Shown piece by piece: positions 1 to 3,952 of a stretch of 64,000 nucleotides of DNA (position 1 is its first letter; each line of letters starts with the position of its first letter). The translations under genes and the position numbers were made by a program. The stretch is from Actinomycetota bacterium. GTDB lineage: Bacteria > Actinomycetota > Actinomycetes > Propionibacteriales > Propionibacteriaceae. The notes beneath the pieces were generated by a model. That model worked only from the letters and a program-made list of their open reading frames with translations. It did no database searches and was not told the origin of the DNA. Location of the stretch: NCBI GenBank assembly GCA_020161795.1, contig JAIUOR010000028.1:1-64000 (forward strand), in the 5' to 3' direction.

Positions 1-99
1 TACAACCACCGCCGGCTCAACGAGTACGCCGGGGACATGCCACCGGCCGTCCTCGAGCAGGTCCACTACGCTCAGCAACAACCCGCAGCAGCAAGCTGA
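1..99 (+). CDS. IS3-family transposase (OrfB), C-terminal end only
   Basis: The frame open from base 1 encodes YNHRRLNEYAGDMPPAVL and ends in a QQQ-rich tail before TGA at 97-99. The YNHRRL...G..PP motif is the classic end of the DDE integrase domain (rve) of IS3-family transposases, just after the catalytic glutamate. The protein would catalyse copy-out/paste-in transposition of its own IS. The N-terminal part, including the frameshifted OrfA, is outside the window, so intactness cannot be judged. Confidence 0.85.
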   Translation, partial: YNHRRLNEYAGDMPPAVLEQVHYAQQQPAAAS

Positions 100-113
100 G
101 GAGTCAACAAACC

Positions 114-141
114 GAGTCTCCGGACATGCCGGGGCGGTTCA
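114..141 (+). repeat. Right terminal inverted repeat of the IS3-family element
   Basis: The stretch from GAGTCTCCGGACATGCC to GGGGCGGTTCA lies 14 bases after the transposase stop. Read inward it starts TGAACCGCCCCGGCATGTCC, which resembles ends I know from actinobacterial IS3 members (TGA...CCGGAGAC). It marks the IS boundary at 141. The matching left end and target duplication are outside the window. Confidence 0.7.
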
Positions 142-287
142 GGGGTAGGTCTGGCAAGGGGTTTTGCGGAGCGAGTCTTCTGTTGAGGTAGCAATTGCTC
201 GCGCCTGAGCATGGGACGGACAGCCTCGGGGAGGGGGTGACCTGTTGATCCTTGTTCGTAGTGATGGAGCTGCGAAGGAGGTGCCTG

Positions 288-527
288 ATGGTCGAGGTTG
301 TGTGGGACAGAACCCTCAAGGCTGATGGTGTTCGCGCCCGACTCCTTCCTCGTAGGACTGGGAAGCACGCGGCGTCCGTCGCCGACAGTGGATGTGCAGA
401 TGTCGACGTCGAGTCCACTGGATCCATGTCTATTTGGCGTTCGAGTCGGCTTGCCGGTCGACTCCACCCGGATGAGCCCGCAGTCGAGGCGCTGGGCGAC
501 TGGCTCCCAGGAAGCCGCGCGGCATGA
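288..527 (+). CDS. Small protein of unknown function in the integrated element
   Basis: 79 codons from ATG at 288. The start is chosen because a perfect Shine-Dalgarno sequence AAGGAGGT (275-282) sits five bases upstream. The product is basic in its first half (LLPRRTGK) with an acidic stretch in the middle, and has no membrane segment or motif I recognise. Its stop overlaps the start of the next gene in an ATGA junction, so the two are probably translationally coupled. Small genes next to an integrase are sometimes directionality factors or regulators, but nothing here shows that. Moderate confidence that it is a real gene, none on function. Confidence 0.5.
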   Translation: MVEVVWDRTLKADGVRARLLPRRTGKHAASVADSGCADVDVESTGSMSIWRSSRLAGRLHPDEPAVEALGDWLPGSRAA

Positions 528-751
528 GTACCCATGGTGAGGCCTGCTACTCCGGCGTGCAAGCCGACTCTCGGGGTGTGATCCTCCCGGCGGTCTGCCC
601 TGATCCGGGCTCTCATCAGTATGGGCCCCAAGCCCGCTATATCAATGACCAGGCGTGGGTGCGACACCAAGTGTCGTTAGCACCGCCCGTGCCGGAGGTG
701 GTAGTCCGCCGAGTACGCAAAGCCCTTCGGCGGATCGCGGACGCGGCTTAG
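524..751 (+). CDS. Small basic-tailed protein, coupled to the preceding small gene
   Basis: 75 codons from ATG at 524, overlapping the previous stop as ATGA. The C-terminal third (PEVVVRRVRKALRRIADAA) looks like a basic amphipathic helix, which could bind nucleic acid or a partner; this is inference only. The stop codon overlaps the convergent end of the recombinase by four bases, a compact arrangement typical of mobile-element gene pairs. No family recognised. Confidence 0.45.
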   Translation: MSTHGEACYSGVQADSRGVILPAVCPDPGSHQYGPQARYINDQAWVRHQVSLAPPVPEVVVRRVRKALRRIADAA

Positions 752-2307
752 GGTCTGATCCAATCCAGCGTGACCCGATCGCGTGTCCCGCCGCGCACGC
801 CGAGCTTGGGTGCCCGGTGCACCACGGGTACTACGAGGTCGGCAATCACGCCGCGCTTCTCCAGGAGCGTGTAGCTCTGCCACCGCGTTTCGGCGTTGGA
901 GCCTGCCAACTGGAGTACCCGCTGACTGTATCCGGACGTCTGCCTCAGACGTCGCTCGAGGCGGTCAATCTCTGGCTGAACCTGATCGCGTGCGGTTCTC
1001 AGGATGCTCATGTCCAGCTGAGTTGCAGACTCACGGCGCGCCTCATCCATGTACGCCTTGGCCTTTGCCAGCCTTTCTTGTAGTGCTGCGCGAGAAGCCG
1101 ATACCTCCATATCTCGCTCGTCCGCGCGTGCCAGGAACTCCGGGTCCGAAAGCCGGGCTATCACCGCCTGCTCGACCAGGTCATCTAGATGCTTCATGGA
1201 CACAGTCACATGCCCCATTCCACTGCGCTGGCCGGTACGGTAACCCTTGCACACATAGATGTTGTAGAACGTGGTCGGATCGTCGGGATTTCGGCGCTGG
1301 CGGCCCCTGTTCTGCTTCGCACGGATCAGTTTTGCTCCGCATGGCGTCAACTCCCCGTCTGGGCCAGGAACGACTGCGCCGCACTCGGCGATCCCTGACA
1401 AGAGGTAGGCGATCTTCCACTCGTTTGGATCGCGCCGCGGCCGCGCCTCATGGCGTGCGCGAAACTCCCACCATCGCGTGCGATCAACGAGTGCTGGCCA
1501 CTGGGCTTCCACTCCGTCCAACACCTCGCCACGGAACTCCCGTAGCCCGGCGTACGCAGGTTTAAGCGCGACCTCAAGGATCATCTCGGTGGTCCATCCG
1601 GCATTTGCGCGTTTCGGGTTTCGGACCGGTCGGCGAGGCGGTACTCCGCGCCGGTTCCAGTCCGCTGCGACCTGGTATGCGCTCTCGCCGTCATAAAGTC
1701 TGTGGAACGCTTCCTTGACCAGCCCGGCCGGAGTGTCACCGGCGTCAGTGACCGGCTTCTCGTCCGGTTCGATCGATTCAAGCCGTCCCGTTTCGATCGA
1801 TCGGCGGTAGCTATAGCCCCACAGGTTCTTGCCGTGCTTAGCCCCCTTCAATGCCTGGCGTTCTACGTCACGGAGGATCCTGGCCCTGGTCTGTGCTGCT
1901 TCTTGCTCGGCAAGGAGGGCGTCCAGTCCAGTGCGGAACTGATCGGACGGCTTGGACAGGTCGAACACTTGGCCGCTGTATGCCCAAAGGACACCAGGAT
2001 CACCGGAGCCGGTCGGAGCGCAGGCGAGACGCAGATCGAGGTACGCCTGCAAGTCACGGGTTGAACGTGACGCCTCCCAGCACATGATCGCATCCATGGC
2101 GCGCGCCCGGATACCGTCCATCACCTCGACCCACTCTTGCCGCTCCTTACGGGCGTACTTGGATGCTGACGCGGTCTCCGACAGAATGCGGGTCACGGTC
2201 CAGCCTTCTCTGGCTGCCCACTCCAGCCCTAGCTCCTCTTGTTGAGCGACAGAACGTGACACACCTTTTGGATCTCTCGAGACCCGGTTGTACAGCCACA
2301 CTTCCAT
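748..2307 (-). CDS. Large serine recombinase (integrase) of the mobile element
   Basis: 519 residues from ATG at 2307, chosen because GAGGTGAG lies just upstream and the first residues MEVWLYNRVSRDPKG match the resolvase fold. Tyr5-Asn-Arg-Val-Ser9 is the catalytic serine motif and RSTRD in the MCWEASRSTRD segment supplies catalytic arginines. After the resolvase domain come a Recombinase domain (about residues 185-290, GLVKEAFHRLYDGES to LKPAYAGLREF), a Cys-containing zinc-ribbon region (SGIAECG ... YVCKG) and a C-terminal coiled-coil stretch ending in conserved basic residues. Such enzymes integrate and excise elements at short attP/attB cores. A longer frame to 2406 crosses the junction and is not needed. 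Position beside the broken comEC makes it the likely integrase of this element. A -10-like TATCCT is at 2328-2333 (minus). Confidence 0.93.
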   Translation of the reverse strand: MEVWLYNRVSRDPKGVSRSVAQQEELGLEWAAREGWTVTRILSETASASKYARKERQEWVEVMDGIRARAMDAIMCWEASRSTRDLQAYLDLRLACAPTGSGDPGVLWAYSGQVFDLSKPSDQFRTGLDALLAEQEAAQTRARILRDVERQALKGAKHGKNLWGYSYRRSIETGRLESIEPDEKPVTDAGDTPAGLVKEAFHRLYDGESAYQVAADWNRRGVPPRRPVRNPKRANAGWTTEMILEVALKPAYAGLREFRGEVLDGVEAQWPALVDRTRWWEFRARHEARPRRDPNEWKIAYLLSGIAECGAVVPGPDGELTPCGAKLIRAKQNRGRQRRNPDDPTTFYNIYVCKGYRTGQRSGMGHVTVSMKHLDDLVEQAVIARLSDPEFLARADERDMEVSASRAALQERLAKAKAYMDEARRESATQLDMSILRTARDQVQPEIDRLERRLRQTSGYSQRVLQLAGSNAETRWQSYTLLEKRGVIADLVVPVVHRAPKLGVRGGTRDRVTLDWIRP

Positions 2308-2385
2308 CCGACTCACCTCACCGCAGTAGGATAAGCCCGCCTCGTAGGCTGCGGAAGCCCTCGGGGACTCACCCTGACATTCAAC

Positions 2386-2404
2386 ATTGACTGGTAGCAA
2401 CCTC
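2386..2404. other. Inferred attachment junction (element/comEC)
   Basis: The conserved ComEC motif (normally A-V-S-G-x-N) resumes here as T-G-S-N-L-T. The codons ACT GGT at 2390-2395 are AT-rich for this genome, whereas AGC AAC CTC ACC onward has host-like codon use. The crossover therefore most likely lies within about 2391-2400. An in-frame stop at 2375-2377 closes the host frame on the element side. Confidence 0.55.
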
Positions 2405-3952
2405 ACCCTGCTCCTGGCGAGCCTGCTGTGGTTGGCCGCACGGCTCGGTGTACGTGGTTGGTGGCTGCGCGGTCTGGCCGTGATCGGAGTCGCCGGGTTC
2501 GTCGTGCTCTGTCACGGCGAGCCGAGCGTGGTGCGCGCGGCCGCGATGGGCTGCGTCGGCCTGGCCGCGCTGGGGTTCGGTGGTCGCCAGCGGGGGCTGC
2601 GCCAGCTGTCGTGGGCGGTGATCGCGCTGCTCCTGATCGATCCCTGGCTGGCCTCGTCGGCGGGTTTCGCGCTGTCGGTCACGGCCTCGGCCGGGATCAT
2701 CTGCTGGGCGCGGGCCTGGGCCGGTGCCCTGGCCGGCTGGATGCCGCGCGGTCTGGCGGAGGCGATCGCCGTGCCGATCACCGCGCAGCTCGCCACCCAG
2801 CCGATCGTGGTTGCGATCTCGGGCCAGCTCAGCCTTGTGGGAGTGCTGGCCAATCTGGTGGCCGGACCGCTGGTCGGCCCCACGACGGTTCTCGGTTTCG
2901 CCTGCGCGGCGGTCGGCCCGGTGTGGCCGGCGGGTGCGACCGCGCTGGGGTGGCTGGCCGGCTGGGGCGCCCAGGCGCTGTGCTGGATAGCGAATCTGGG
3001 CGCGCTGCTTCCGGCGGCGGCGATCCCGTGGCCGGCCACGCCGGCCGGGATAGCGGTGTTGATCGGGTTGAGCGCGGCGGGCTTCCTCCTGGGTGGCCGG
3101 TTGCTGCTGAGGCGTTGGCTCGCGGTTCTGGCGGGTCTCGGGCTGATGGCGGCGCTGCTGCGTCCGGCCACCGCACCGGGCTGGCCTCCGGCCGACTGGG
3201 TGGTGGTCCAGTGCGATGTCGGCCAGGGATCGGCCAGCATCGTCGCGGTGGCACCCGGGGAGGCGATCGTGGTCGACACCGGACCGGATCCGCCCGCGCT
3301 GGAGCGCTGCCTGAGCGCGCTGGGCATCCGGCGGGTGCCACTGCTGGTGCTCACGCACTTCCACGCCGATCATGTCGGCGGGCTGGGGGCGCTGGCGGGA
3401 CGTGCGGTGGACGTGGTGCTGGCGCCGGCCGGCCACGCCGGTGCCGAGCGGGTTCCGCTCGTCCTGCCCGATGCCGAACCGATCGCGGCCGCGCCGGGCC
3501 TGGGGATGCGAATCGGGGACGTGCGGGTGGACGTGGTGTCGGCCCTGCCGGTTTCCGCGCCGCCGATCGCCGGGGAAGGGGAATCCAGCGGTGAGAACGA
3601 CGGCTCGGTGGTGACCCGGATCGACACCGGGCGCGTGGTCGTCCTTGCCACCGGCGACATCGAGACCGCCGGCCAGGCGGCCGTCCTTGGCTCGGGCCAG
3701 CCGATCGTCGCCGACGTCCTGATCGTCCCCCACCACGGCTCCGCTCGCCAGACCGCGGAACTGTTCGCGGCCGTCGGTGCCCCGGTCGCCCTGATCGGCG
3801 TGGGGGAGAACACCTACGGACACCCCTCGGACAGCGCGCTGCGCCAGCTCTCCCAGGCGGGCAGCGCGGTCTTCCGCACCGACACCCAGGGGTCCCTCGC
3901 CGTGACCGTTGCGGAGGCAGGCCTCCAGGTGACAACCGAACGCCCGGGATGA
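2387..3952 (+). pseudogene. comEC: comEC 3' fragment (DNA uptake channel), 5' part displaced by the element
   Basis: ComEC/Rec2 is the inner-membrane channel for single-stranded DNA in transformation. Full-length actinobacterial proteins are about 750-850 residues; only some 520 remain. Present are the second part of the Competence domain (many hydrophobic segments, residues 1-260) and the C-terminal metallo-beta-lactamase domain with THFHADH at residues 323-329 and VPHHGS at 447-452. The N-terminal OB-fold, first membrane segments and the start codon are missing. The apparent TTG at 2387 has no ribosome site and is only where the open frame begins. The sequence downstream of the junction is otherwise undamaged, so precise excision of the element could restore the gene. 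Confidence 0.9.

Follow-up and report, generated by a model that had tools for sequence, protein, structure and literature searches.

A conserved glycine codon of comEC as the probable integration site of a serine-recombinase ICE in an actinobacterium

The window, the whole 64,000-nucleotide stretch analysed here, consists of bases 1-64000 of contig C15 in a 67-contig draft genome, and its start is the contig end. The first bases (1..141, plus strand) are the right end of an insertion sequence (IS) that was placed in the IS3 family by eye, with the end of transposase orfB and the terminal inverted repeat. The right arm of an integrated element, in which no gene was recognised, lies between this IS and the integrase gene (142..747). 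The integrase is a large serine recombinase (LSR) of 519 amino acids encoded on the minus strand (748..2307); its full open reading frame covers 748-2406, and an alignment supports the ATG start at 2307. The Pfam domains follow in the order Resolvase (1e-12), Recombinase (1.8e-8) and zinc ribbon (2.5e-4, just below the cut-off), and the protein matches the phrog_95 integrase at 6.7e-59. Beyond it are the element arm of attR (2308..2392), a GG dinucleotide (2393..2394) and the 3′ half of comEC (2395..3952, plus strand). The comEC frame in the window (2387-3952, plus strand) encodes 521 amino acids, and this 3′ half of the gene is 83% identical to the intact comEC of the nearest relative, G009. 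It holds the rest of the Competence domain and a metallo-beta-lactamase domain, undamaged up to the stop. The Pfam Competence match (8e-36) begins at profile position 30 of 270, and the first 29 positions are absent. A sequence-only reading of this DNA had described a frame that resumes in an S-G-x-N motif beside a divergent LSR and runs intact to its stop, and both the Pfam matches and the junction sequence confirm that description.

The reading had also proposed a search for the 5′ part of comEC at the far boundary, and this part is present in the same genome. A profile search located Competence positions 1-31 at C48:23851-23943. On contig C48, comEA is followed by the 5′ half of comEC, which reads ..GLAHLAAVSGAN and stops after ..PK; the half ends in ..FRVTGLAHLAAVSGAN, then PK and the stop, at the same codon as the cut in the window. 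Joining the two halves in silico at their common GG gives an open comEC of 765 codons. The joined protein aligns with the intact ComEC of G009 over 757 amino acids with no gap and 78.3% identity, and it regains SGSN, the residues of G009. Precise excision, as considered in the sequence-only reading, is thus predicted to restore comEC exactly in frame. Uninterrupted homologues of the same short length, which would have spoken against an insertion, were not found among the congeners. Of 29 genomes of the genus, 25 have comEC as an unbroken frame of 731-901 codons; of the remaining four, two lack a comEC match, one has its match at the edge of a contig, and in one the match starts within the gene. 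A naturally short ComEC is ruled out by these 25 full-length frames.

The GG is common to attR (window 2393-2394) and attL (C48:23938-23939), and it forms the first two bases of the glycine codon in S-G-x-N. The left junction on C48 reads GCCGTGTCC-GG-TGCGAATCC, with GG at C48:23938, and the right junction in the window reads AACATTGACT-GG-TAGCAACC, with GG at 2393. Together, the element arms in the window and on C48 reconstruct an attP with dyad symmetry centred on GG. Twelve of 21 positions are symmetric (11 of 20 in a second scoring, shuffle p = 0.006), and GG was the best among the centres tried. The corresponding attB has 7 of 20 symmetric positions. Across five elements, reconstruction gives an attP with dyad symmetry about GG at 11-13 of 20-21 positions, compared with about 5 expected. 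Domain order and size, a short core dinucleotide, a dyad-symmetric attP and a dissimilar attB are the marks of an LSR system, and on sequence grounds the window element has all of them. Site-specific insertion into comEC, as originally suggested, is supported by the fact that both halves end at the same codon. We therefore consider it highly probable that comEC is the attB of this LSR and that an ICE integrated by attP x attB recombination at the GG of the S-G-x-N glycine codon. In the proposed mechanism, the LSR would have recombined the attP of the ICE with the attB in comEC at GG. That event would account for the observed layout, in which comEA and the 5′ half of comEC, with a stop shortly past the junction, lie at one boundary of the insertion and the integrase gene and the 3′ half lie at the other. 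The same recombinase together with a directionality factor would excise the element and rebuild comEC in the frame given by the in silico join.

From the junction, C48 runs 23.5 kb to its end. The element genes on this contig encode a SAF-domain protein, a CpaE/ParA-like protein, a TadA-type ATPase, a Fic protein, an SCO6880-family protein (5.5e-123) and a VirB4-like ATPase (1e-14), and further Tad-like genes and a LysM protein were recognised by eye. C48 terminates inside an IS3-family element. A 3-base target duplication, AAG, pairs it with contig C51 in reverse orientation, and across the IS the two contigs share one continuous transglycosylase/NlpC frame. This IS3-family copy, with its AAG duplication, disrupts the element's lytic transglycosylase gene. 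C51 contributes genes for a TraG/VirD4 coupling protein (TraG-D_C, 6e-23) and a DnaG-like primase, then runs into another insertion sequence, and there is no closed step from it to the window contig. A direct join of C48 to the window through the IS is contradicted by the target duplications (AAG versus GGG), and C48 pairs with C51. The same IS has three left and three right ends in the genome; contigs C54, C29 and C32 bear other ends of it and are not assignable to the element. Because IS3 copies broke the assembly, the element is split over C48, C51 and the window. The window LSR very likely belongs to the same element as C48 and C51, and the link from C51 to the window is the one that we infer. 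C48 and the window could also hold the ends of two elements in one site.

Its gene content marks the element, which spans at least about 36 kb, as an ICE of the T4SS/Tad type and not as a prophage. It has an integrase and a specific integration site, and its sequence includes VirB4-like, VirD4-like and secretion genes. The combination of Tad pilus/secretion genes, SCO6880, VirB4-like and VirD4/TraG proteins, lytic transglycosylase and primase makes spread by conjugation very probable. The SCO6880 family, the TadA-type ATPase, the VirB4-like protein and TraG/VirD4 are shared with actinobacterial conjugative elements of the T4SS/SCO6880 type. A relaxase search of the genome found six TrwC proteins, of which one is on C48 but outside the element and the rest are on unlinked contigs. 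Just upstream of comEA, at C48:1-21900, is a second mobile element with this TrwC relaxase (C48:6681-7895), a tyrosine integrase-like gene and a tRNA-Lys. A tRNA gene was also called about 220 bases within the left end of the comEC element (L006:10155-10227) by Rfam at 36 bits, above the cut-off, and was not called by ARAGORN.

With its ComEC channel split, the carrier is expected to have lost the ability to take up DNA. This expectation from the gene anatomy agrees with results in Micrococcus luteus, an actinobacterium that has comEA/comEC together with Flp/Tad pili and in which deletion of comEC abolishes transformation (PMC4322843). The loss could be permanent, with a decaying, immobile element broken by IS3 and comEC on its way to becoming a pseudogene. 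The IS3-type copy within the transglycosylase gene of the element points in this direction, as does G047, a genome in which comEC is cut at the same codon, the 3′ half is partly lost and no LSR was found. However, the present genome retains an intact integrase, intact att sites on both flanks and two undamaged comEC halves, and selection on comEC is not relaxed. The ratio of replacement to silent changes in the 3′ half is 15:56 on the carrier branch and 14:42 on the sister branch; in the other half it is 5:19 versus 7:17. Neither half shows a surplus of replacement changes on the carrier branch. Permanent knockout is a tentative reading, to which we give somewhat less than even weight.

The unrelaxed selection is compatible with a recent insertion as well as with repeated restoration of the gene, and a recent insertion is the simpler explanation. 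In a regulated competence switch, precise excision under some condition would restore comEC and DNA uptake. For the comK prophage of Listeria, excision and its regulation are established. As in that example of active lysogeny, a competence gene is split here and exact excision would restore it, but comK encodes a regulator and is interrupted by a phage, whereas comEC encodes the channel and is interrupted by an ICE. The exactly in-frame restoration, the lack of excess amino-acid changes in both halves, and excisionase-like genes that adjoin the LSR in clade mates speak for a switch. Yet a recent insertion accounts equally well for the unrelaxed selection, and a search of this genome, made without a positive control, found no homologue of a directionality factor. 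A regulated switch remains unlikely because an excisionase-like gene was not found in this genome.

The same codon is interrupted in other actinobacteria. A scan of public genome contigs with the window LSR alone as query gave no match, and a scan of viral contigs found no relative. A profile built from two LSRs and searched against public genomes recovered four LSR relatives at 32-34% identity. In Granulicoccus phenolivorans (G037), an uncultured Curtobacterium and Microbacterium oryzae, a comEC 3′ half adjoins an LSR and begins at SGAN. For Granulicoccus and Curtobacterium, matching 5′ halves with their ends at SG occur elsewhere in the genome. For M. oryzae, a pattern search did not recover the 5′ half, as the match that it gave was not comEC. 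In Arthrobacter terricola, the comEC pieces end at the same SG codon and the 5′ end region is present in two copies. The LSR there is on the same contig as the 3′ piece but at a distance of about 40 kb, and therefore either this locus underwent rearrangement or the element changed its position.

One more case came from a survey that covered 395 genomes of the class. In the closed genome G220, a 40-kb prophage (3033190-3073238) lies between the comEC halves at the same codon, with capsid, tape measure and lysin genes recognised by eye, and in two congeners of G220 one side of such an arrangement, 5′ or 3′, is present. The proposal that comEC serves as attB gains support on two sides: clade-mate LSRs occur at this codon in three other genera, and both comEC halves flank the element of another LSR lineage in a closed genome. 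These cases also bear on the idea of an assembly artefact or a naturally short ComEC. The draft state of the genome and the start of the window at a contig end would allow an artefact, but the same junction recurs in independent genomes, one of them closed, and we regard this explanation as scarcely credible.

In a tree of 59 LSRs, the window LSR joins those of Granulicoccus, Arthrobacter, Curtobacterium and Microbacterium (SH-aLRT 96), and its exact place is less sure because of its long branch. The G220 prophage LSR is a separate lineage. It is 62-63% identical to the serine integrases of Gordonia phages (CarolAnn, Utz and relatives), whereas the same phage integrases share only 32-34% identity with the window LSR. 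Since the prophage LSR lies elsewhere in the tree, the S-G-x-N codon was adopted at least twice. Two LSR lineages, one on an ICE and one on prophages, have thus settled on a single codon, across several actinobacterial families. A third LSR lineage, in G074, splits comEC at another place. There, the halves (C33:134766 and C59:48932) meet at the HHGS codons of the metallo-beta-lactamase domain with a common CAC, and these codons are a second landing site within comEC.

The S-G-x-N codon was most likely chosen because the DNA around it is highly conserved and the gene is both widespread and dispensable. An added benefit, protection of the element from removal by transformation, is plausible. In a stronger form, comEC would be favoured because blocked uptake prevents deletion of the element by transformation, and not for its conservation as such. 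The presence of at least three LSR lineages in comEC agrees with this proposal, as do published models and data for elements that occupy competence genes (PMC4774983, PMC12637031) and the general over-representation of competence genes among LSR targets (PMC10083194). However, the present data do not separate it from a simple preference for conserved DNA, and we place it slightly short of an even chance. The repeated hits at one codon are natural replicates, and the question of sabotage versus conserved target therefore becomes testable. A speculative and unlikely extension would make the S-G-x-N codon a landing site used generally in actinobacteria, with distinct integrase lineages converging on it. 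The elements would then be reversible locks on uptake that stay in place while blocked uptake benefits them and leave, with comEC restored, under conditions in which the host turns competent.

Insertions in comEC have been described before. Phi1207.3 (Tn1207.3) and Phi10394.4 of Streptococcus carry serine recombinases and integrate at a GA inside comEC/celB (PMC4260502). They resemble the window element in being serine-recombinase elements inserted site-specifically within the comEC coding sequence. The Phi1207.3 type, however, is a conjugative prophage of Firmicutes with three resolvase-family recombinases, whereas the window element is a T4SS-type ICE of Actinomycetota with one LSR. The core dinucleotides also differ, GA as opposed to the GG of the S-G-x-N codon. 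PMC4774983 cites an insertion of a macrolide cassette into pneumococcal comEC, and comEC disruption has been termed rare (PMC12955456). Our literature search found disruption of comEC by mobile elements only for streptococci and, through transposons, in Piscirickettsia; searches aimed at comEC as the attB of a serine integrase or large serine recombinase, or as an actinobacterial prophage site, returned nothing. Because comEC is already a known LSR target and competence genes are enriched among such targets, the window case is of a known kind. As far as the searchable literature shows, the actinobacterial family, the GG in the S-G-x-N codon, an ICE as carrier and the convergence of lineages are all unreported.

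The results yield predicted attB/attP pairs for new integrases. They also suggest that DNA uptake has been repeatedly silenced by mobile DNA, which precise excision could in principle reverse. Searches for comEC in draft genomes call for caution, as they may miss or misread interrupted genes. Two of the comEC insertions have further features. In G047 (C1:626281-633013), comEC is cut at the same SGAN codon by an insert of about 6.5 kb with a loss of about 190 comEC residues; no LSR was found in the insert, and a cytosine methyltransferase and a NotI-like protein were recognised in it by eye. It is perhaps a decayed element turned defence island. The Curtobacterium element (contig C51 of that genome, L115:2731-6794) has an OLD-family nuclease beside a UvrD-like helicase, a pair that is, by eye, reminiscent of the Gabija defence pair.
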